Shown piece after piece: positions 12,761-39,909 of a stretch of DNA of 64,000 bases. The position numbers and the translations under genes were made by a program. The DNA comes from Alicyclobacillus sp. (GTDB taxonomy: Bacteria > Bacillota > Bacilli > Alicyclobacillales > Alicyclobacillaceae), in assembly GCA_023511725.1 (NCBI GenBank), contig JAIMAY010000006.1:1-64000 (forward strand), given 5' to 3'. Every line of letters begins with the position of its first letter. Positions within the stretch are counted from its first letter, which is position 1. The notes under the pieces were generated by a model. It saw only the letters and a program-made list of their open reading frames with translations, searched no databases and was not told the origin of the DNA.

Positions 12761-13759
12761 TTATGGCGAGACCACAATCTTGCCCATGGCGCCTTTCTCC
12801 ATCTGCGCCATGCTGTGCGACACGAACGTATAGGTCCCCGCTTTATGGAACACCACCGTGATCAGCGCGCCGTCTCCGGGCGCGACAGTATACGTCTGTA
12901 CATCCCTGAGGTGGTCCTCCGGACTGCCCGAGGGCTGTACGTCCGCCAGCACCGTACCGACAATGTGGAACGCAGAAAATTCGTTGGGCCCCGCGTTCAC
13001 GAAGGCAATGCGAAAGGGCTGACCCACCTTCGCTCGGAGCGGATGATCCACGTAGCGGTTTACCTCGCCGTCGAACACCACGTATTGCGGCTGGTCATTC
13101 AGCATGGCGTTGGTGTCGTTCCCCGGATACAGCTCGCTTTGTACAATCACGGCGTCCGGTTTGGCCTCACCGGAAGCGAGGACAACGATGGCGCCGTACA
13201 TCCCGCGCGCCATATGCACCAGCATGGGTTCTGTGGCGCAGTGGTACAGATACACGCCGGGCTTCGCGGCGGTAAAGTGAACCACCCCCGTCTGGCCCGG
13301 GGCCACCTCCGTCCACGTTCCCGCCGGCGCGTCTGTCGCCGCGTGTAAGTCAATGGAGTGTGGCATCGCCGAGTCGAGATTGTGGAGCGTGAGCGTCACG
13401 TGATCGGCTTGTTGTACATACAGTACGGGTCCCGGCAGGGTGCCGTCGAACGTCCACGCGTTAAAGTTGACGCCGGACGCCGGATGAACCACTGTATCCT
13501 GCGCGGTCATCTGAATCTCCACGTCACGCCCGTGCCGGATGACCTTCACCGGTATCGGCGGGGTGTTTGGCGACGAAGTGGAGGCGGTGCTATTCATGCC
13601 CACCCTATTCATCCCAGGCATGTTGCCCATCGCGTTTAGACCGGCGCCACCTGTGGCATTTCTCGTGTTTGGCGATCCCGCCTGTACCCCGCATCCGGCC
13701 ACCAGCAGCGCCGCCGCACCGATGGCCGCCGCGCCCAGTCGCATTCGCTTCACCTTCAT
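12761..13759 (-). CDS. nirK: Copper-containing nitrite reductase (lipoprotein)
   Basis: NirK reduces nitrite to nitric oxide. The 332-aa protein begins with a lipoprotein signal (LLVAGC) and a Met-rich linker (GNMPGMNRVGMN), then two cupredoxin domains. Type 1 copper ligands are visible in YHCATEPMLVHMARGM (Cys, His and Met with short Bacillus-like spacing, plus His in MPHSIDLH). Type 2 ligands fit the second His of MPHSIDLH, the His before the Cys, and the His in VSHSMA; the catalytic Asp is in SIDLH. It is anchored outside the membrane. Start ATG follows GAAGGGAGGGAACG. With narGHJI and the NO reductase it gives the middle step of denitrification. Confidence 0.93.
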   Translation of the reverse strand: MKVKRMRLGAAAIGAAALLVAGCGVQAGSPNTRNATGGAGLNAMGNMPGMNRVGMNSTASTSSPNTPPIPVKVIRHGRDVEIQMTAQDTVVHPASGVNFNAWTFDGTLPGPVLYVQQADHVTLTLHNLDSAMPHSIDLHAATDAPAGTWTEVAPGQTGVVHFTAAKPGVYLYHCATEPMLVHMARGMYGAIVVLASGEAKPDAVIVQSELYPGNDTNAMLNDQPQYVVFDGEVNRYVDHPLRAKVGQPFRIAFVNAGPNEFSAFHIVGTVLADVQPSGSPEDHLRDVQTYTVAPGDGALITVVFHKAGTYTFVSHSMAQMEKGAMGKIVVSP

Positions 13760-14252: not shown

Positions 14253-14942
14253 TCAGGCGCCCGTCGAGGGGTGACGGCGCGTTCGGTATAGAATGGGGGA
14301 ACGCGCCGGGTACCGCAGAGGCGCGCTCCAGACGTGTACCAGACGCGTGAACGGTGTTGCGGCGAAGAGGGCAAACGAAAGAATGACGTGAAGCTGCAAC
14401 AGCCCCGGCACGCCGGACATCCGGGCGACGTCCGGATGAAGGGCCAAGACGCTGCGCAGCCACGGACCGACGGTCGTTCGGTATTCATACGGACCAAATC
14501 CGGCATTGTACCCGATCGTCATGGCAGTGCCGGTCCATACCACCGCTGCCAACAGTGCGAGTGCCACCCAGTCTCCCACGGTGGAGTTCACCCGGACACG
14601 CACTACACCCGCTCGCCTCACGCCAAGCAGCAAAATCCCGATGCTCGCTGCCAGACCGGCCACGCCCCCGGCCCACATCGCAAACGCGTGGTACACTTCG
14701 TCTGACACGCCCAGCGCATGATACACCCCGATGGGCACCAACAGACCTGCGACGTGGCCGGCGAGCACGCACAGGATCCCCCAGTGAAATAACGGACTGG
14801 CGAGGCTGAGCCACCGCTTCTCGAAGAACTCGCTGGACTTCGCGGACCACCCCAGCGGACGCGTGACCCGCCGCCAGACACTGCCGATGACAAGGCATGA
14901 TATCGCCAGGTATGGGAATACACCCCACAAGAACGCGGCCAT
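14253..14942 (-). CDS. narI: Respiratory nitrate reductase, gamma subunit
   Basis: Membrane cytochrome b subunit, 229 aa with five helices. It oxidises quinol and passes electrons to NarH. Likely heme ligands are in PLFHWGILCVLAGHVAG and in LLQLHVILSF. Last gene of narGHJI. The frame is open to 14987, but the ATG at 14942 follows AAAGGAG and begins the first helix (AAFLWGVFPYLAISC), matching the family start. Confidence 0.94.
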   Translation of the reverse strand: MAAFLWGVFPYLAISCLVIGSVWRRVTRPLGWSAKSSEFFEKRWLSLASPLFHWGILCVLAGHVAGLLVPIGVYHALGVSDEVYHAFAMWAGGVAGLAASIGILLLGVRRAGVVRVRVNSTVGDWVALALLAAVVWTGTAMTIGYNAGFGPYEYRTTVGPWLRSVLALHPDVARMSGVPGLLQLHVILSFALFAATPFTRLVHVWSAPLRYPARSPILYRTRRHPSTGA

Positions 14943-14999
14943 ACATGAATGTCTCCTTTCCGTTCCGCTCTCGTTCGCACCTGGCACGAGGCACGTTCG

Positions 15000-15707
15000 T
15001 CAGCCCGTGTCATCTGGGTCCGTCACGAGCAGCGGATAGGGGACGGTGTTGTCCACCTGCGCGGGCGTCGGAGACGTCGGATTTGCCGCGGCGGCGGGCA
15101 GGTGCGCGGCCGTGAGTTGGAACGGCGGGGCGTACGGGTGGCCCGTACCGAGCGTTTCAGCAATCGCCGCCAGCACGCGCCCGAGCCGATGGGGAAGCTG
15201 GATTTGGCACGCGCCCTCCCAGTCCATCGCGATGTACTCCAGCAATGCCGGTACAAAGTCGGGAAGCTCACGCAACTCAGGCTCCCATCCTCGGCTTTGC
15301 AGTTGGTGATGCAAGAGCCACAGCGCATGTCCACGATCTCGGCTCTCCCCGCACTCGTGGGCCGTCAAATAGAGGGCACAGCCGGGATGTAAGTCAAATG
15401 ACTCCACGTACACACGGGCAAGTGCCAGCGCGTCCCCGGCCAGCCACCGATCAACGCATCGTGCGAGCTCCGGCCATCCGTCGCGCAGCGCCTGGTCGCG
15501 TAATGAGGGAAGGTCTGCCCAGAAATCCGGATCGCCCGGGTATTGCAGGAGTGCGGCCGTCAGCAGATACAACCGCCGGATTCGCCGACCGGGCGGAGGC
15601 GACGTCGCATCACCGCCATGCGATGCTCCGTGCGGCGAGCCGGATAGATGCGGGGGCACGTGCACGTGTTCCACCTTCTTCCTCGAAAATATCTCAGCGG
15701 GACGCAT
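15000..15707 (-). CDS. narJ: Nitrate reductase assembly chaperone
   Basis: NarJ (TorD-like) helps insert the molybdenum cofactor into NarG and is not part of the mature enzyme. The protein (up to 235 aa) is mostly helical with the family start LTAALLQYPGDPDFWADLP and a conserved middle (YVESFDLHPGCALYLTAHE). The C-terminal 40 residues are Pro/Ala-rich. ATG 15707 overlaps narH by 14 bp, but it has no clear Shine-Dalgarno sequence; GTG codons about 45 bp downstream, after GAAGAAGGTGG, are possible starts. narI follows 57 bp later. Confidence 0.9.
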   Translation of the reverse strand: MRPAEIFSRKKVEHVHVPPHLSGSPHGASHGGDATSPPPGRRIRRLYLLTAALLQYPGDPDFWADLPSLRDQALRDGWPELARCVDRWLAGDALALARVYVESFDLHPGCALYLTAHECGESRDRGHALWLLHHQLQSRGWEPELRELPDFVPALLEYIAMDWEGACQIQLPHRLGRVLAAIAETLGTGHPYAPPFQLTAAHLPAAAANPTSPTPAQVDNTVPYPLLVTDPDDTG

Positions 15708-17151
15708 GCGACACGCGGCCTTCGGGCGGCGCAATGCCGTCGAGGCTGCATCCGCCCTGTACCGCCGGATTCGCTTGGTTGCGGTCCGCCGTCGGGATGA
15801 CAAACCGTTCGTCATACTTCGAGACGGCAAACATCCGTGCCATGTCCGCCAAGTCCTGTTCGGTCAGGCCCACCGCTCGAGCAATCTCGGCCCCTCCGCC
15901 TTCCGCGAGCTGCACGCGCCGGGACCAGGCGCGGACGGCGGCCAAGCGCAACAACGCCCGGCGAATCACCGCGGTATCCCCCGCCGACAGGATGGAGGCG
16001 AGGTATTCCACCGGAATTCGCATCCGGTTCACTCGGTCGACAATGTCTTCCGTCTCGTCCATGCCCGCGAGAAGCGGCGACAGCGGCGGCACGTACCAGA
16101 CCATGGGCAAGGTCCGATACTCCGGATGCAGCGGCAGCGCCACTTTCCATTCCACCGCCATGCGATACACGGGAGAGCGCTGTGCAGCTCGAATCCACGC
16201 CTCGGAAATCCCCGCCTGGCGAGCGGCGGCCTGCACCTGCGGGTCATGGGGATTCAGAAACACCCCCAATTGCGCCTCGTACAGCTCCTCCTCCCGGTCG
16301 ACGCTGGCCGCCTCGCGTACCTTGTCCGCGTCGTACAGGATGGGACCCAGGTATCGGATACGGCCGACGCACGTCTCTGAGCACACCGTCGGCAGTCCCG
16401 CCTCGATGCGCGGGTAGCAGAAGTGACACTTTTCCGCCTTGTGCGTGCGCCAGTTAAAGTACACCTTTTTGTACGGGCACGCGCTGACACAAAATCGCCA
16501 TCCACGGCACGCCTCTTGATCCACCAGCACAATTCCGTCCTCGTCCCGCTTGTAGATGGCGCCGGCCGGACACGCCGCGACACATGCGGGGTTGAGGCAG
16601 TGCTCGCAGATGCGCGGCAGGTACATGAGAAACGTCTGTTCGTACGCAAGTTGGATCTCGACCGCGAGCGGGTCGATGTTTGGGTCCTGGGCAGCTGTTT
16701 CTGATCCTCCCGCGAGATCATCATCCCAGTTGGGACCACTCTCTGGCCGATCCATCGGGCGACCTGTCACGGCGGAACGGGGCCGGGCCACCGGTTGATG
16801 CGGCACCTCCGGGCTCGTCAGGAGGTTCTCGTAGTCGTAGGTCCACGGCTCGTAGTAATCATCCAACACCGGAAGGTCCGGGTTGTGAAAGATGTGAGCC
16901 AACCTCGACCAGGCGCCGCCCGCACGCAGCCGAAGTGTGCCGCCTGTCTTCACCCAACCGCCGCGATACTTCTCTTGGTCTTCCCACCGATTCGGATATC
17001 CTGGGCCGGGACGGGTCTCTACGTTGTTGAACCACGCGTATTCCACGCCCGGCCGGTTCGTCCAGGTGTTCTTACAAGTCACGCTGCACGTGTGGCAACC
17101 GATACACTTGTCAAGATTCATCACCATTGCGATTTGCGCCTTGACGTTCAA
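15694..17151 (-). CDS. narH: Respiratory nitrate reductase, beta subunit
   Basis: The 485-aa Fe-S subunit carries electrons from NarI to NarG at the inner face of the membrane. It has the four cysteine clusters of the family: CIGCHTCSVTC near the N-terminus, CEHCLNPACVAACP, CRGWRFCVSACP (Trp in place of one Cys, as in the 3Fe-4S site) and CHFCYPRIEAGLPTVCSETC. The ATG at 17151 overlaps the narG end by 41 bp and gives the usual family N-terminus with the first cysteine at residue 16. Tight overlaps on both sides support one translation unit. Confidence 0.95.
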   Translation of the reverse strand: MNVKAQIAMVMNLDKCIGCHTCSVTCKNTWTNRPGVEYAWFNNVETRPGPGYPNRWEDQEKYRGGWVKTGGTLRLRAGGAWSRLAHIFHNPDLPVLDDYYEPWTYDYENLLTSPEVPHQPVARPRSAVTGRPMDRPESGPNWDDDLAGGSETAAQDPNIDPLAVEIQLAYEQTFLMYLPRICEHCLNPACVAACPAGAIYKRDEDGIVLVDQEACRGWRFCVSACPYKKVYFNWRTHKAEKCHFCYPRIEAGLPTVCSETCVGRIRYLGPILYDADKVREAASVDREEELYEAQLGVFLNPHDPQVQAAARQAGISEAWIRAAQRSPVYRMAVEWKVALPLHPEYRTLPMVWYVPPLSPLLAGMDETEDIVDRVNRMRIPVEYLASILSAGDTAVIRRALLRLAAVRAWSRRVQLAEGGGAEIARAVGLTEQDLADMARMFAVSKYDERFVIPTADRNQANPAVQGGCSLDGIAPPEGRVSHASR

Positions 17152-20100
17152 GCCAATCCACCTCGTCTCCGAGCGGGCGGATCACGGCCAGCACATCGCG
17201 CTGGTGTCCGGTCGGCCCGTAATAGTTGAATCCGTAGCTGAGCTGCGCGTACCCGCCAATCATGTGCGTCGGCTTGGGCTGAATCCGCGTCACGCTGTTG
17301 TGCGTGCCCCCCCGTGTACCGGAGAGGCGACTGCCCGGCACGCCAATGACGCGGTCCTGTGCGTGGTACATCATCGCCACACCGCGAGGCATGCGGTAGG
17401 TCAAAACAGCTCGCGCGACGATGACCCCGTTGCGGTTGTACACTTCAACCCAATCATTGTCGCGGATACCCGTCGCCCGGGCGTCCTCTTCGTTAAGCCA
17501 GATCACCGGTCCGCCGCGGAAGAGTGTCAGCATGCGGATGTTGTCCGCGTAGGTAGAATGAATGCCCCACTTTTGGTGCGGTGTCAGATACCGCACTATC
17601 AGCTGTCCCCCTTGCGCGCCCACAGGCGCCTCTCCCGCCGCGAACGGTGGCAGGTGCAGAGGCGGGCGATAGACGGGCAATGCTTCGCCGAACTCCAGCA
17701 TCAGTTGGTGATCCACGTACAGGTGTTGGCGACCGGTAAGCGTTCGCCAAGGGATCAGGTGCTCCACGTTCGCCGTGAACGGCGCGTAGCGGCGACCACT
17801 GCTCTCGAGCCCGCTCCAGGCCGGCGCCGCGAGTGTCTGTCTGGGCTGTGCGATCAGGTCCTGGTACCGGTACATCGTCTCGCTGTGGCCTTCGGCAATG
17901 TGCCTCAATGGCAGCCCGACCGTCCCTTCCAAAGCGGCCCATTCCGCCTGCGCCAAGCGCCCATTGGTGGCACCGGAAAGGGTGAGAATCGCCTCTGCCA
18001 CGTCCCGATCCGACTCCAGGCGTACACGCGACGTACCTGTCCCGGCGTCGACCACACGGCCATTGTGCCGCGCGAGTTCCTCAATCGCGTCGGCTGTGTC
18101 GACCGTGATACCCTTGAACGTGATGGACCGCTCTGCCAGCGGCCCCAGTGTGATCAGCTGCTGTGCGACGTTCGGATAGTTGCGCCGGACAACGGTGAAT
18201 TTCGGCATGGTCTTTCCGGGAATGGCCGGAACGTCACCGCGGCGCCAGTCGCGAACCTTCCCTAACGGCTGCGCCAGCTCGTCCGGTGTGTCATGCAACA
18301 GCGGCGCCATCACCAGGTCCTCGCACGCCGGAAGGTGACGAGCAGCCAACTCGGAGAACCTCTCGGCAATGCTGCGAAAGGCATCCCAGTCCGTCCGCGC
18401 CTGCCACGGCGGATCGATCGCGGGTTGGAACGGATGGATGAAGGGATGCATGTCCGTGGTGCTCAAATCATGTTTCTCGTACCACGTCGCTGCCGGCAGA
18501 ACGATGTCCGCGTACACGCCTGTCCCCGTCATGCGAAAGTCAATATCAACCAATAAGTCCAATTTGCCGATGGGCGCATGCTCTGCCAACGTGACCTCTG
18601 CAGGTCGCCACGATACGGATTCATCCGCCCACACTTGGCCGCGCTCACGAGCTTCGCGTATCACGTCGAGCGGATTCTGTACAAATTGGGGAAAAGACGG
18701 CAGCCAGCCGAGCCGTACCGCCAGTGCGTTGAGATCCGCCGGATGCATGTGAGCGAGCTCCGTGGCCCCCGGCGCGGCGATGCCCGGAACCTGCTCTTCG
18801 TGCCGAAACTGCTCCGTAGTGAAATAGAAGAATGAAGTGCCGTTCATCTGTCGCGGCGGTCGCACCCAGTCCGTGGCGAATGCCACCGTGGACCATCCCT
18901 CCAGCGGGCGCACCTTCTCCTGCCCCACGTAGTGAGCCCAACCGCCGCCATTGACGCCTTGGCAACCCGTCACGAGCACCAGGGCGATGATGGCGCGATA
19001 CGTCGCATCGCTGTGATACCAGTGATTTGTGCCGGCCCCCAAAGCAATCATCGACCGGCCCCGGGTGCGTTCCGCATTGTCGGCAAACTCTCGCGCTACA
19101 CGAATGGCCAGCCGCCGATCAACGCCCGTTATGCCCTCCTGCCAAGCGGGGGTGCCTGGACGCGGGTCAACGTAGTCCTTCGGATAGTCTCCCGGGAGAC
19201 CGCGATCCACGCCCACCTGTGCCATTAACAAGTCGAACACTGTGGTGACGTAGACCTCCCCGTCCCCGGAGGTCACGCGCCGCACGGGCACCCCGCGTGA
19301 CACCGCACCGGCACGGCCGGTATCAAATACAGGTACCTGTACTTGAACGATGTCATCCGCATGGTTCAGCAGCGTCAGTGCAGGAGTGATGGCAGCGCCT
19401 TCCCCGTCTTCCAACCGGAGATTCCAACGTCCAGAGCCGTCCCAGCGAAACCCCACACTCCCGTTCGGGACTTTCAATTCTCCCGACGCCAAATCCCACA
19501 CCACTGTCTTCCATTCGGCATGTGCCTCACTGTCACCGATGTCACGAGCGTTCAGAAACCGGTCAGACACCCAACCCGCATCTGTCCGGCGCAAGGTCAC
19601 GAGGAACGGCAGGTCCGTGAACCGGCGGACGTAGTCCACAAAGTACGGCGTCTCCCGGTCCACGTAGAACTCCTTCAGGATCACGTGCAGCATGGCCAAC
19701 GCCAGCGCGCCATCCGTGCCGGGCTTCGCGGGGAGCCACGTATCTGCAAACTTCACGTATTCGGCGTAGTCCGGGCTGACCGCCGCTACTTTCGTCCCGT
19801 TGTACCGCGCCTCGACAAGAAAGTGCGCATCTGGCGTCCGAGTCATCGGCAGGTTGGTACCCCAGATGATGAAATACTTCGCGTTGTACCAGTCCGCGCT
19901 CTCCGGCACATCCGTTTGCTCGCCCCAGATCTGCGGAGACGCGGGCGGCAGATCGGCATACCAGTCATAGAAGCTGAGCAACGTGCCGCCGATGAGGGAC
20001 AAGAATCGCGCCCCTGCCGTGTAGCTCACCGGGGACATGGCTGGGATAGGGCTGAACCCCACCACTCTGTCCGGACCGTAGCGGCGGATGGTATGGGTAC

Positions 20101-20629
20101 AGGCCGCTGCAATCAGCGTCGTCACCTCGTCCCAGGTGGACCGCACAAAGCCGCCGTGCCCACGAGCACTTCGAATGGCCGCCATTTTCTCAGGGTCTTC
20201 CGCGATGGCGGCCCACGCCGACACCGGATCCTTGCCGGACTCGAGCCCCGCACGCCACAGCGTGAGCAACACAGCGCGTACGTACGGATATTTCACTCGC
20301 AGCGGGCTGTACTCATACCAGGAAAAACTGGCGCCGCGCGCGCACCCTCGTGGCTCGTAGTCTGGGCAGTCTCTACCCGTGGACGGGTAATCGGTGGCCT
20401 GGGTCTCAAACGTGATCAGCCCGTCCTTGACATGCACTTTCCAGCTGCACGCCCCCGTGCAATTCACCCCATGTGTGGTACGGACCTCTTTGTCATGCGC
20501 CCAGCGCCGACGGTACAAATCTTCCCAGGCGCGAGATTTGGCGCTCTCCGTGGCCCATCCGCCGGCCCAGGTCCTGCGCTGTTTCAAAAAGCGTAACCTG
20601 CTCTCCGTCCGTTCTTGCGTCTCTTTCAT
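17111..20629 (-). CDS. narG: Respiratory nitrate reductase, alpha subunit
   Basis: Catalytic molybdenum subunit, 1172 aa, near the family length. It reduces nitrate to nitrite on the cytoplasmic side. The FS0 cluster motif H-x3-C-x3-C is seen in THGVNCTGACSW, with the later Cys in YEPRGCARG, and the Mo-ligand Asp in QTDVPESADWYN. No Tat signal is present, as for NarG facing the cytoplasm. The ATG at 20629 overlaps the stop of the small gene upstream (ATGA), so translation is coupled. An upstream in-frame extension to 20698 lies inside that gene and is rejected. Confidence 0.96.
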   Translation of the reverse strand: MKETQERTESRLRFLKQRRTWAGGWATESAKSRAWEDLYRRRWAHDKEVRTTHGVNCTGACSWKVHVKDGLITFETQATDYPSTGRDCPDYEPRGCARGASFSWYEYSPLRVKYPYVRAVLLTLWRAGLESGKDPVSAWAAIAEDPEKMAAIRSARGHGGFVRSTWDEVTTLIAAACTHTIRRYGPDRVVGFSPIPAMSPVSYTAGARFLSLIGGTLLSFYDWYADLPPASPQIWGEQTDVPESADWYNAKYFIIWGTNLPMTRTPDAHFLVEARYNGTKVAAVSPDYAEYVKFADTWLPAKPGTDGALALAMLHVILKEFYVDRETPYFVDYVRRFTDLPFLVTLRRTDAGWVSDRFLNARDIGDSEAHAEWKTVVWDLASGELKVPNGSVGFRWDGSGRWNLRLEDGEGAAITPALTLLNHADDIVQVQVPVFDTGRAGAVSRGVPVRRVTSGDGEVYVTTVFDLLMAQVGVDRGLPGDYPKDYVDPRPGTPAWQEGITGVDRRLAIRVAREFADNAERTRGRSMIALGAGTNHWYHSDATYRAIIALVLVTGCQGVNGGGWAHYVGQEKVRPLEGWSTVAFATDWVRPPRQMNGTSFFYFTTEQFRHEEQVPGIAAPGATELAHMHPADLNALAVRLGWLPSFPQFVQNPLDVIREARERGQVWADESVSWRPAEVTLAEHAPIGKLDLLVDIDFRMTGTGVYADIVLPAATWYEKHDLSTTDMHPFIHPFQPAIDPPWQARTDWDAFRSIAERFSELAARHLPACEDLVMAPLLHDTPDELAQPLGKVRDWRRGDVPAIPGKTMPKFTVVRRNYPNVAQQLITLGPLAERSITFKGITVDTADAIEELARHNGRVVDAGTGTSRVRLESDRDVAEAILTLSGATNGRLAQAEWAALEGTVGLPLRHIAEGHSETMYRYQDLIAQPRQTLAAPAWSGLESSGRRYAPFTANVEHLIPWRTLTGRQHLYVDHQLMLEFGEALPVYRPPLHLPPFAAGEAPVGAQGGQLIVRYLTPHQKWGIHSTYADNIRMLTLFRGGPVIWLNEEDARATGIRDNDWVEVYNRNGVIVARAVLTYRMPRGVAMMYHAQDRVIGVPGSRLSGTRGGTHNSVTRIQPKPTHMIGGYAQLSYGFNYYGPTGHQRDVLAVIRPLGDEVDWLERQGANRNGDES

Positions 20630-20892
20630 CGATTCGAGTTCCCCCCTTGCTTCGGCAACGGAGACAGATGAATGCGAAACCCATCCCGCTGCTGCCACTC
20701 CGTCTCAAACGCATCCCAGTCCGGGGCGTTCGCCGCGACGAGGATCAACCGCTCCAACACGTCCGGATCCCGAATCTGCAGGATGCTGTTGCGCACATCG
20801 TACGGCACACCGCCGAACCGCATCTCCAGCACGGCGAGCAGGTCCTCCTTGTCCGCCGTCAGCCACTCGTCCGGCCATTGCCGCTCGTTCAT
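20626..20892 (-). CDS. Small uncharacterised protein in the nar operon
   Basis: An 88-aa acidic soluble protein between the hemerythrin-like gene and narG. The middle (LEMRFGGVPYDVRNSILQ, then PDVLERLILVAANAPDWDAFE) resembles the C-terminal helical part of DUF4351/Rpn-type proteins, where an R-F-G-x-[LV]-P segment is followed by a 'LE-L' helix; the likeness is weak and I assign no function. It overlaps both neighbours by ATGA, and GGGGAGG lies seven bases before its ATG at 20892, so it is a real coupled gene. Its place suggests a role in making or tuning nitrate reductase. Confidence 0.8.
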   Translation of the reverse strand: MNERQWPDEWLTADKEDLLAVLEMRFGGVPYDVRNSILQIRDPDVLERLILVAANAPDWDAFETEWQQRDGFRIHLSPLPKQGGNSNR

Positions 20893-36064: not shown

Positions 36065-36128
36065 TCTACATATCGCCGCGCTTCATGGAAAACATACCCT
36101 CGTCAGGTCAGTGTCAAGGAGGGTGTCC

Positions 36129-36947
36129 ATGATGCGGTATATCAAACTGTGGGTAGCACTGGGCGTGGTCTTCATCCTGTCGTTCGCCGTACTGGGATTC
36201 TACGGCGGCCGCATTTACCACACCATGCCCCCCATTCCCAAGCGAGTCGTCACGACCAGCGGGAGCGTGCTTTTCACCGGAGATGACATTCGGGAAGGAC
36301 AAAATGTTTGGCAGTCGATGGGCGGCCAGGAGGTCGGGACAGTGTGGGGACATGGCGCCTACGTGGCGCCCGACTGGACGGCGGACTGGCTGCACCGGGA
36401 ATGTCTCTGGATGCTGAATCACTGGGCCACCACCCAGTATCACCAAACGTATGACACACTGGATGCGGAAAATAAGGCGACGCTGCAGGCTCGCCTGCAA
36501 ACGGAAATGCGAACGAACACCTACAACCCCACCACGGGCGACTTGGTTATCTCGGACCTGCGCGCCCAGGCGTTCCGCGCCATAAGCCAGCACTACGCCT
36601 CCCTCTTCACGCACGATCCCGCTCTCGCTCCATTGCGCGACGCCTACGCGCTGCCGAGCGACGTCATCAAAGACCAAAGTCGAGTGGCGCCGCTCACCGC
36701 CTTTCTCTGGTGGGCCACATGGTCATGCGCCACCAACCGGCCGGGAGACGTGGTGACGTACACAAACAACTGGCCGCATGAGCCGCTGATTGGAAACAAC
36801 CTCACGGGCTCGATGGTGGTTTGGTCGGTAGTAAGTTTCGTGTTGCTGCTGGCTGGAATTGGCGCGTTGGCATGGTACTATGCGACGGAACGCCACCCGG
36901 ATGACGTGGAGGTCTATCCCGACAGAGACCCGCTACTCGCTCTGTAG
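36129..36947 (+). CDS. norB: Quinol-dependent nitric oxide reductase, N-terminal part (ends at in-frame TAG)
   Basis: This 272-aa reading frame is the N-terminal region of a qNOR: one membrane helix (about 8-27), the outer domain that resembles NorC but has no heme-binding CxxCH, with qNOR motifs GQNVWQSMGGQEVGTVWGHG and APDWTADWLHRE, and the start of the second helix. In known qNORs this region is continuous with the NorB core. Here a TAG at 36945 ends it after DPLLAL, and the core goes on in the same frame only 12 bases later. The start follows AAGGAGG. Read-through, a truly split enzyme, decay or a sequence error are all open. Confidence 0.88.
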   Translation: MMRYIKLWVALGVVFILSFAVLGFYGGRIYHTMPPIPKRVVTTSGSVLFTGDDIREGQNVWQSMGGQEVGTVWGHGAYVAPDWTADWLHRECLWMLNHWATTQYHQTYDTLDAENKATLQARLQTEMRTNTYNPTTGDLVISDLRAQAFRAISQHYASLFTHDPALAPLRDAYALPSDVIKDQSRVAPLTAFLWWATWSCATNRPGDVVTYTNNWPHEPLIGNNLTGSMVVWSVVSFVLLLAGIGALAWYYATERHPDDVEVYPDRDPLLAL

Positions 36948-36959
36948 CCTACGCCGTCG

Positions 36960-38411
36960 ATGCGGGCCACCTTGAAATACTTCTGGGTCGTCGCGGCACT
37001 GTTCGTCATCCAGATAGCGCTGGGTGCCATCACTGCACACTTTCAAGTCGAAGGTACGAGCTTTTACGGTGTTCCAATCGCGAAGTGGATTCCCTATGCC
37101 GTCACCCGCTCGTGGCACACCCAACTCGGCATCTTCTGGATTGCCACGGCGTGGTTGGCTACGGGACTGTTTATGGCACCTGCGGTATCCGGGTATGAAC
37201 CGAGAGGTCAACGCGCACTTGTGAACTTCCTGTTCATTTGCCTCGTGATCATCGTCGTGGGTGCGCTCGCCGGCCAATGGTTGGCCATCATGCAGCGCAT
37301 CCATAACCTGTCCACCAATTTCTGGTTTGGTCATCAGGGGTACGAATACACGGACATCGGCCGCTTCTGGCAGATCTTCCTGACGATAGGGCTGTTCCTG
37401 TGGTTCCTCCTGATGGCTCGCGCCCTGTGGCCTGCCTTCCGGAAGGCCAAAGAAAGCCGGCATTTACTGGCGCTGTTCCTCCTGGCCTCTCTGGCCATAC
37501 CCGTCTTTTACGTACCGGCACTCATGTGGGGTCAGCACTCGCACCTGGCCATGGCCGAATACTGGCGTTGGTGGGTAGTTCACCTGTGGGTGGAAGGGTT
37601 CTTCGAGGTTTTCGCAACGACGGTCATTGCGTTCCTCTTTACGCGGATGGGATTACTTCGTATATCGACAGCGACCTCGTCCATCCTGTTCTCGACCATC
37701 GTGTTCCTGTTCGGGGGCATCATCGGCACTTTCCACCATCTGTACTTTAGCGGAACGCCCATCGGGGTGCTGGCGTTTGGCACCGCCTTCAGCGCACTGG
37801 AGGTGGTGCCCTTGGTCCTCGTGGGATTCGAGGCATATGAGAACCTGACGCTGAGCCGCGCCCGCCCATGGGTGGCGGCTTACCGATGGCCCATCTATTA
37901 CTTCGTCGCCGTGGCCTTCTGGAACCTGGTGGGTGCTGGGCTGTTCGGCTTCTTCATCAATCCACCTGTCGCACTCTATTATATGCAGGGACTCAACACC
38001 ACCCCCGTGCACGGGCACGCTGCCCTTTTTGGCGTATACGGGATGCTCGGTATCGGGCTCATGCTATTCTGCCTACGCGGGCTCACGGCACGCAAAGCGT
38101 GGAAAGACGGATCTCTTCGATTCTCCTTCTGGGCGATGAACATTGGCTTGGGGCTGATGATCCTGCTCAGCCTGCTACCGGTCGGGATCATGCAGACGTG
38201 GGCAAGCGTGGAATACGGTACATGGTTCGCCAGGTCCGCGGAGTTCATGCAACGGCCCACTATCCACCTGTTCGTCTGGCTCCGGATTATTGGTGACACC
38301 ATTTTTGCGCTGGGTGCCCTTGTGCTCGGATGGTTCATCGTCGGGCTTAAGACGGGATGGTCCCTGACGGATCGGCCCCACTTGCCGGAAGAGGTGGAGT
38401 CGAGGGCGTGA
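36960..38411 (+). CDS. norB: Nitric oxide reductase catalytic part (NorB domain of qNOR)
   Basis: A 483-aa, 12-helix catalytic core that joins two NO molecules to N2O. Likely metal ligands: His in SWHTQLGIFW; FeB ligands in MWGQHSHLAMAEYWRWWVVH and the His pair in GTFHHLYFSG; catalytic Glu in LWVEGFFEV; heme His in VHGHAALFGVYG. It follows the N-terminal part in the same frame, after a TAG and 12 bases. The first ATG (36960) has no Shine-Dalgarno sequence, and the codons between the stop and this ATG (PTPS) match the normal qNOR linker, so the two frames were one gene. Quinol is the likely donor, since no c-type heme subunit is present. Confidence 0.92.
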   Translation: MRATLKYFWVVAALFVIQIALGAITAHFQVEGTSFYGVPIAKWIPYAVTRSWHTQLGIFWIATAWLATGLFMAPAVSGYEPRGQRALVNFLFICLVIIVVGALAGQWLAIMQRIHNLSTNFWFGHQGYEYTDIGRFWQIFLTIGLFLWFLLMARALWPAFRKAKESRHLLALFLLASLAIPVFYVPALMWGQHSHLAMAEYWRWWVVHLWVEGFFEVFATTVIAFLFTRMGLLRISTATSSILFSTIVFLFGGIIGTFHHLYFSGTPIGVLAFGTAFSALEVVPLVLVGFEAYENLTLSRARPWVAAYRWPIYYFVAVAFWNLVGAGLFGFFINPPVALYYMQGLNTTPVHGHAALFGVYGMLGIGLMLFCLRGLTARKAWKDGSLRFSFWAMNIGLGLMILLSLLPVGIMQTWASVEYGTWFARSAEFMQRPTIHLFVWLRIIGDTIFALGALVLGWFIVGLKTGWSLTDRPHLPEEVESRA

Positions 38412-38470: not shown

Positions 38471-38717
38471 ATTTCCCAGTACGGTGGTAGACAGCCGCGA
38501 CGAAGAGGATACTCATGCTGCTCACGGTTGGCCAATGCATGGGGGAGCGCCGGAGTGCCAAACAATCCCCGGGTGAGGTCTCGCATTCTGTCCCCCACCT
38601 TGAGCACAGGATGACACCGTAATGGCGCAGGAAGGCGTGACGTGGCGCACAACCACGCTGTCATACACGGTGGATAATCGCCATGAAAGTACACTTGCCA
38701 CACGAGGGGGCCACGCC

Positions 38718-39548
38718 ATGCAGCGATTCACACTTGAATTTCGCCATAAACCCGTACAGAGCCTGTTTCAGCGAGGCCAGAGCAAATTTGTACAGTTGTC
38801 GCTGGAACCGGGACAAGGCCTGACCAGGCATCGGGTGGCACTGACACTGGCCGTGGTCGTGGTGAGCGGCCGGATCCGCTTTACTGCGGAGGGACGGGAC
38901 GAGGTGCTCGGTATGGGAGACGTGTTGGTATTGGATCCTGATGTAGAACACGCAGTCCAGGCTGTGGAACGGAGCGTGGTGCTGCTGGTCCTGGTCCCGG
39001 ATCAAGGGGCGGAAGTCAGGCCGCAGCCCACGATGAAACTCGACCATCCGAACGCCTTTCAGAATCCTGAGCTGATGGATCAGATTGCTCCAGAGCTACG
39101 CCCACTGGTCGAAGACCACCTCCACGTCTGCAAGGTACTGGAGTCCGTCAACACGTCGATGGCCCCGCCAACGGTGAAAAACGCACTGTCGGTCATTGGA
39201 GAAGAGATAGCACACCATTTCGTAGCGGAGGAACAGATTCTCTTCCCACGCATGGCTCAACACGTGGGCGGCATGGATGTCGGTCCAGTAGCACGCCTCC
39301 TGGAAGAACATCACCATATCCGCCAACTCCATCAAGAGGCAGAGTCTTTGCTTGACGCCTGGCAAAGCGGTGGCGACGAGCATACGTGGACGTTGTTGAC
39401 CAACAAACTGACGGAGTTAGCGCCGGCCTTGCTCAACCATCTAGGAAAAGAAGACAGTCATCTGTTCCCGATGGCGAGTCGATTACTCACGCCGCAAGAA
39501 AAGTCAGTCATCGCGGAGGAGCTGAAGGCCATCACACCTCGTCCTTGA
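38718..39548 (+). CDS. Cupin-hemerythrin fusion protein
   Basis: A 276-aa soluble protein of two metal-type domains. Residues about 1-105 form a cupin barrel (LEPGQGLTRHRVALTLAVVV, GRIRF, LGMGDVLVLDPDVEHAV). Residues about 125-270 form a hemerythrin/HHE bundle with iron ligands in VEDHLHV, EEIAHHFVAEEQILFPRM, LLEEHHHIRQLH and LLNHLGKEDSHLFP. Hemerythrin proteins of the YtfE/ScdA type repair nitrosylated Fe-S or di-iron centres; its place just after the NO reductase suggests NO handling. The ATG at 38718 (GAGGGGG before it) is chosen over an upstream in-frame ATG at 38622. The 300 bases before it hold only the norB hairpin and probably its promoter. Confidence 0.85.
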   Translation: MQRFTLEFRHKPVQSLFQRGQSKFVQLSLEPGQGLTRHRVALTLAVVVVSGRIRFTAEGRDEVLGMGDVLVLDPDVEHAVQAVERSVVLLVLVPDQGAEVRPQPTMKLDHPNAFQNPELMDQIAPELRPLVEDHLHVCKVLESVNTSMAPPTVKNALSVIGEEIAHHFVAEEQILFPRMAQHVGGMDVGPVARLLEEHHHIRQLHQEAESLLDAWQSGGDEHTWTLLTNKLTELAPALLNHLGKEDSHLFPMASRLLTPQEKSVIAEELKAITPRP

Positions 39549-39597
39549 GCAGAGAACACATGGTTGGCGACTCGGTTGAACATTGGAGGGAAGACGC

Positions 39598-39909
39598 TTG
39601 ACCTGGTTTCCGGTCTGCCGCGAGACGGATGTCCCAGAATGCGACATGCGACTTTTCAAGGTGGATGACATCAACCTCCTGGTCTACCATCTCTCGGACG
39701 GCTGGTACGCCACGGGCGAGATCTGCACGCATCAGGCGTGCTCGCTCTGGGATGATGGCGAACTGGAAGAGCCGGAGATTGTGTGCACGTGCCACGGGGG
39801 CGCATTCGACATTCGCAGCGGTGCGCCGACCCGCATGCCGTGCGTGATCCCGCTAGAAACATACGATACTCGCGTTGTGGAGGGCCAGGTGGAGATTGAC
39901 CTGCCATGA
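39598..39909 (+). CDS. Rieske-type [2Fe-2S] ferredoxin
   Basis: A 103-aa protein with a complete Rieske site: C-x-H in ICTHQACSLWDD and C-x2-H in CTCHGGAFDIRSG, like NirD and dioxygenase ferredoxins. There is no signal peptide or membrane helix, so it is cytoplasmic. The start is a TTG at 39598, seven bases after GGAGGG; another TTG at 39583 would overlap the Shine-Dalgarno sequence. It lies 49 bp after the cupin-hemerythrin gene and probably shares its transcript, so it may deliver electrons to that di-iron protein. This link is inference. Confidence 0.9.
   Translation: MTWFPVCRETDVPECDMRLFKVDDINLLVYHLSDGWYATGEICTHQACSLWDDGELEEPEIVCTCHGGAFDIRSGAPTRMPCVIPLETYDTRVVEGQVEIDLP

Follow-up and report, generated by a model that had tools for sequence, protein, structure and literature searches.

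A quinol nitric oxide reductase gene interrupted by one in-frame TAG, probably a nonsense allele or a base error

Results

Layout of the interrupted gene

The 64-kb window, i.e. the whole stretch of DNA that was analysed, carries at 36129-38411 on the plus strand a frame that translates to 272 residues, a TAG at 36945-36947, the residues PTPS, and then Met36960 and 482 further residues up to the TGA ending at 38411. The features of this quinol nitric oxide reductase (qNOR) gene are as follows.

36116..36123, plus strand: AAGGAGGG, the qNOR Shine-Dalgarno sequence, upstream of ATG 36132 by 8 nt and of ATG 36129 by 5 nt
36129..36947, plus strand: N-terminal part, 272 aa from 36129, comprising TM1, a cytochrome c-like domain and TM2, and ending at the TAG
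36945..36947, plus strand: in-frame TAG; the nearest relative reads TCG, and the 82 relatives show 11 residues and 0 stops
36948..36962, plus strand: linker codons PTPS and Met36960; (P/A)TPSM kept in relatives
36960..38411, plus strand: catalytic NorB core, 483 aa (PF00115, COX1, E 1.3e-61)

The two parts align one after the other to single-chain qNOR structures, and the best matches of each are qNOR. The N-terminal part, which covers residues 3-271 of a solved qNOR in the alignment, matches the NorB cytochrome c-like domain (PF22085, E 1.9e-73), and its translation contains no CXXCH haem c motif. The core matches solved qNOR with an E value of 3.6e-155 and, in that alignment, has the histidine motifs of the haem and FeB sites, SWHTQ, VHLWVEGFFE, FHHLYF and PVHGHAALFG. 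That these domains share one frame is not a matter of chance. Translation of the 760-codon frame (table 11) revealed the TAG as the sole internal stop, and no further lesion. This agrees with the first-pass annotation, which had described one in-frame TAG, followed by PTPS, between an N-terminal part and a NorB core that share a frame; the 755-residue product that it gave needs correcting, as read-through would yield 759-760 residues. Because the TAG at 36945 prevents the two modules from lying in one uninterrupted frame, as they do in G021 and in the majority of relatives, the gene is classed as a disrupted qNOR gene and not as a proven qNOR enzyme.

Translation probably starts at ATG 36132, since the relatives align from there and AAGGAGGG lies 8 nt upstream. 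The duplex with the anti-Shine-Dalgarno sequence was -11.7 kcal/mol at the gene's own start but +0.9 kcal/mol upstream of ATG36960, which bears out the earlier remark that the second ATG has no Shine-Dalgarno sequence. It was the linker position of the stop that caused this gene to be noticed. Of the 247 single-base changes that would create a stop in the qNOR gene, 5 lie in the linker (codons 256-275); for a stop placed at random, this position is a coincidence of roughly 2%.

The stop codon and the second methionine in relatives

We compared codon 36945 with its counterparts in 82 genes of at least 60% identity, each covering the codon, and a stop was found in none of them (0/82). Eleven amino acids occur at the position, i.e. 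Ser (the commonest, 20), Lys (15), Asn (9) and Thr (8), and also His, Glu, Arg, Gln, Ala, Asp and Val; it ranks 19th of the 760 positions for variability and is flanked by the nearly invariant DPLL and TPSM. The TAG thus falls on a linker residue that varies freely, and the first-pass annotation was right that the codons beside it match the qNOR linker. Across relatives, qNOR identity was 36-87%. The nearest relative, from the same family (G021), has an uninterrupted gene that is 86% identical over its full length and reads TCG at this codon, one base from TAG. The equivalent of Met36960 is invariant (81/81 relatives), so that in the alignment it is an internal residue of ancestral origin rather than a newly gained start. 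A sense codon in relatives, a single base separating the TAG from G021, and an invariant Met lacking a Shine-Dalgarno sequence together make up the pattern expected of a point nonsense mutation.

Wider searches gave no closer comparison: a plasmid search for a close qNOR copy returned partial matches in 32 records (60-80% identity in 30), none of which covered 80% of the query, and a phylum-wide search returned distant NorB/qNOR relatives only, which were uninformative for the TAG codon. A second qNOR or NorB was not found in the genome.

Age of the lesion and constraint on the two halves

Synonymous sites are saturated between the interrupted gene and that of G021, and the stop therefore cannot be dated. 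Measured against the outgroup L017, dN was 0.304 in the N-terminal part and 0.156 in the C-terminal part for the interrupted gene, and 0.317 and 0.142, respectively, for G021. Amino-acid changes were divided 15:16 between the interrupted gene and that of G021 in the N-terminal part and 13:5 in the C-terminal part, which is not decisive. Excess change appears to be absent from the gene's own lineage, so nothing suggests that the gene has been relaxed for long or rebuilt as a split enzyme. The absence of accumulated decay implies that the lesion is recent, or that the gene still works, or that the base is wrong.

Genetic code and read-through

Read-through of the TAG, by a suppressor tRNA, by pyrrolysine or by a leaky UAG, would give the full 760-residue enzyme; the rest of the qNOR frame is intact, and with at least 11 residues tolerated at the position, it should not matter which amino acid is inserted. 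However, RF1 is encoded in the genome, the best matches to PylS there scored 25 bits against a cut-off of 178 bits, and no CUA anticodon occurred among the tRNAs that ARAGORN called at 27 tRNA matches, a set that is incomplete and lacks several amino acids, so that a suppressor tRNA is still conceivable. Moreover, TAG serves as an ordinary stop in the 64-kb window, where it ends seven other ORFs of at least 100 aa. We consider read-through highly improbable, and this part of the first-pass annotation has no positive support.

Apparent conservation of a TAG at codon 232 in L015 and G800, a candidate recoding site, was rejected because identical match statistics indicate one genome present twice. 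Since stops fall at different sites in different genomes, a conserved recoding site is, on the positions observed, absent.

Breakage of qNOR genes across the class

In a sample of 399 genomes of the class, in-frame stops were found in 4 of the 17 long, close qNOR loci, and there were none among the ~160 cytochrome oxidase subunit I (CtaD-type) matches listed in the same sample. With at least ~160 CtaD matches as the control, the difference gave a Fisher p of ~6e-5, or 6e-4 when the window's gene was left out, although the control is imperfect in that oxidases are less dispensable and the counts are among the matches listed. Frameshifts or deletions were also present in the qNOR genes of G274, G087, G106 and G215. 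Some of the lesions in the class may themselves be assembly errors.

These results bear on whether the TAG is an assembly or consensus base error, the organism's own gene being intact. The genome is a draft of 76 contigs, only a single substitution is involved, and the apparently intact narGHI and nirK genes argue that a qNOR should be needed. However, lesions in the qNOR gene are frequent in the class and substitution errors are rare in deep assemblies, and we regard a base error, which is also counted within the best explanation given below, as doubtful.

Stops were scattered along the qNOR genes, at codon 232 (L015/L208), codon 195 (L083), codon 52 (L131), codon 28 (L133/L155), codons 194 and 306 (L137/L156), codon 103 (L157/L209) and codon 23 (L211). 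Eight of the nine stops, the window's own included, lie in the N-terminal part, where ~40% of all single-base changes that create a stop would fall; the excess has P ~0.009, computed post hoc for seven of eight before the last locus was added. It may hint that a core without the N-terminal part is tolerated, or it may be chance.

Two further loci are broken in other ways. Anoxybacillus sediminis (complete genome) has a qNOR copy (L014, 3264-5452) with a frame break near residue 178 that is open from TM2 through the core. In a genome of the window's own family (G009; L154, 5430-6023) only the last 145 qNOR residues occur, continuous with unrelated sequence that follows a GNAT-like ORF, and by its make-up this is a 5'-truncated remnant.

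The denitrification neighbourhood

The window also contains the following genes.

12761..13759, minus strand: NirK-type copper nitrite reductase, apparently intact, with copper ligand motifs HSIDLH, YHC, MLVHMARGM, FHIVG and SH
14253..20698, minus strand: respiratory nitrate reductase genes narI/narH/narG, apparently intact
14253-14987, minus strand: narI, respiratory nitrate reductase, no internal stops
15694-17151, minus strand: narH, respiratory nitrate reductase, no internal stops
17111-20698, minus strand: narG, respiratory nitrate reductase, no internal stops
38622..39548, plus strand: cupin and hemerythrin fusion protein, directly downstream of qNOR, weakly RIC/YtfE-like
39583..39909, plus strand: Rieske protein, with a homologue also beside qNOR in G021

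The NirK-type protein scored 182 bits, under the NCBIfam NirK cut-off of 296, but among solved structures it matches copper nitrite reductases best. The organism is predicted to make NO from nitrite, so a sink for NO is expected to be needed, and loss of the NO reductase should carry a cost given that narGHI and nirK appear intact in the same window. RIC/YtfE are iron-sulfur repair proteins, and the cupin-hemerythrin protein is possibly tied to NO damage. In G021 the qNOR, Rieske protein and NirK genes are located together.

More broadly, 3308-24197 forms a denitrification and respiration region that encodes a QoxABC-like quinol oxidase, a Crp/Fnr-type regulator, a NarL/NarX-like pair, NirK, NarI/NarH/NarG, a NarK-like transporter and a radical SAM protein of the TIGR04053 family.

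Discussion

An ordinary one-piece qnorB with a single nonsense codon, or with a consensus base error, is the best explanation and a highly probable one; that the nonsense allele is real and recent we judge to be likely, and we infer that the change to TAG is recent and probably real. A single base change would have made the TAG at a variable linker codon of a normal single-chain qnorB. The main product is then predicted to be a membrane stub of 271-272 residues without the catalytic site, NO reductase activity would be lost or strongly reduced, and reinitiation at Met36960, 12 nt past the stop, may yield a little of the core chain. Three observations count against a nonsense allele: the apparently intact narGHI and nirK in the window, which should make loss of the NO reductase costly; the place of the stop in the linker between the modules, where a split would be least harmful (~2% of possible nonsense sites); and the lack of a second accumulated lesion.

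The alternative is a two-chain qNOR, in which ribosomes stop at the TAG and restart at AUG36960, 12 nt further on, and the stub and core assemble noncovalently into a working quinol NO reductase resembling NorC/NorB. From the known topology of qNOR the linker should be cytoplasmic, and a split there would leave the membrane topology unchanged; in addition, all of the catalytic histidines are in the core, purifying constraint persists on both halves, and with NirK and NarGHI apparently intact, NO must be dealt with. Bacterial ribosomes can restart within ~40 nt of a stop and reinitiation over short gaps is common in bacteria, but a strong dependence of efficient restart on a Shine-Dalgarno sequence is reported (PMC5972666), and AUG36960 lacks one. 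Furthermore, Met36960 is ancestral, the split was found in no relative (0/82), and the N-terminal part, having no haem c motif, would functionally not be a NorC. We therefore consider a working two-chain enzyme unlikely, and it is very unlikely that this is a qNOR caught splitting, i.e. one in which stub and core, made by stop-and-restart in the cytoplasmic linker, still reduce NO alongside intact nitrate and nitrite reductases. Reinitiation could supply the core chain weakly, but the sequence comparisons do not point to an evolved two-subunit enzyme.

The first-pass annotation had offered four readings. A recent nonsense mutant and a sequence error both stand, because every close relative covering codon 36945, which it had proposed to compare, has a sense codon there (TCG in G021). 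Standing read-through is unsupported, given the presence of RF1, the lack of a PylS above the cut-off or a called CUA tRNA, and the ordinary use of TAG; a qNOR evolving into NorC/NorB-like chains fares no better, as no relative shares the split and the second Met is ancestral and without a ribosome-binding site. The suggested new architecture for NO reductase is not supported, since none of the 82 relatives has a stop at the codon.

If the gene is simply a nonsense allele, it has little significance beyond annotation, and predictions of NO reduction to N2O for the organism should await a check of the base. If two chains do work, nature would have provided a test case for the interconversion of one-chain and two-chain NO reductases. 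That qNOR is often broken in the class may bear on genome-based predictions of N2O release.

Comparison with known systems

In domain order, catalytic histidine motifs and linker, the gene is the same as single-chain qNOR (6qq5, 8bgw, 6l3h, 3ayf), except that single-chain qNOR is uninterrupted whereas here one TAG breaks the gene in the linker. The genome of Bacillus bataviensis LMG 21833, also of the Bacilli, likewise has a disrupted qNOR gene together with other nitrate/nitrite reduction genes (PMC3475470); both of its qnorB copies are corrupted, by frameshifts and truncations rather than by one nonsense codon as here. Natural nonsense alleles of qNOR are also known from Neisseria meningitidis, in which norB alleles with premature stops exist (PMC5834837), although that is a different lineage and one for which there are population data. 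The cNOR enzymes (NorB and NorC) consist of two chains, as would the enzyme here if both halves were made, but NorC carries the haem c CXXCH motif whereas the N-terminal part here is without it and has a qNOR-type sequence. The activity of qNOR enzymes is NO reduction with quinol as donor; by its domains and motifs, the gene described here is assigned to the qNOR type as a disrupted gene.
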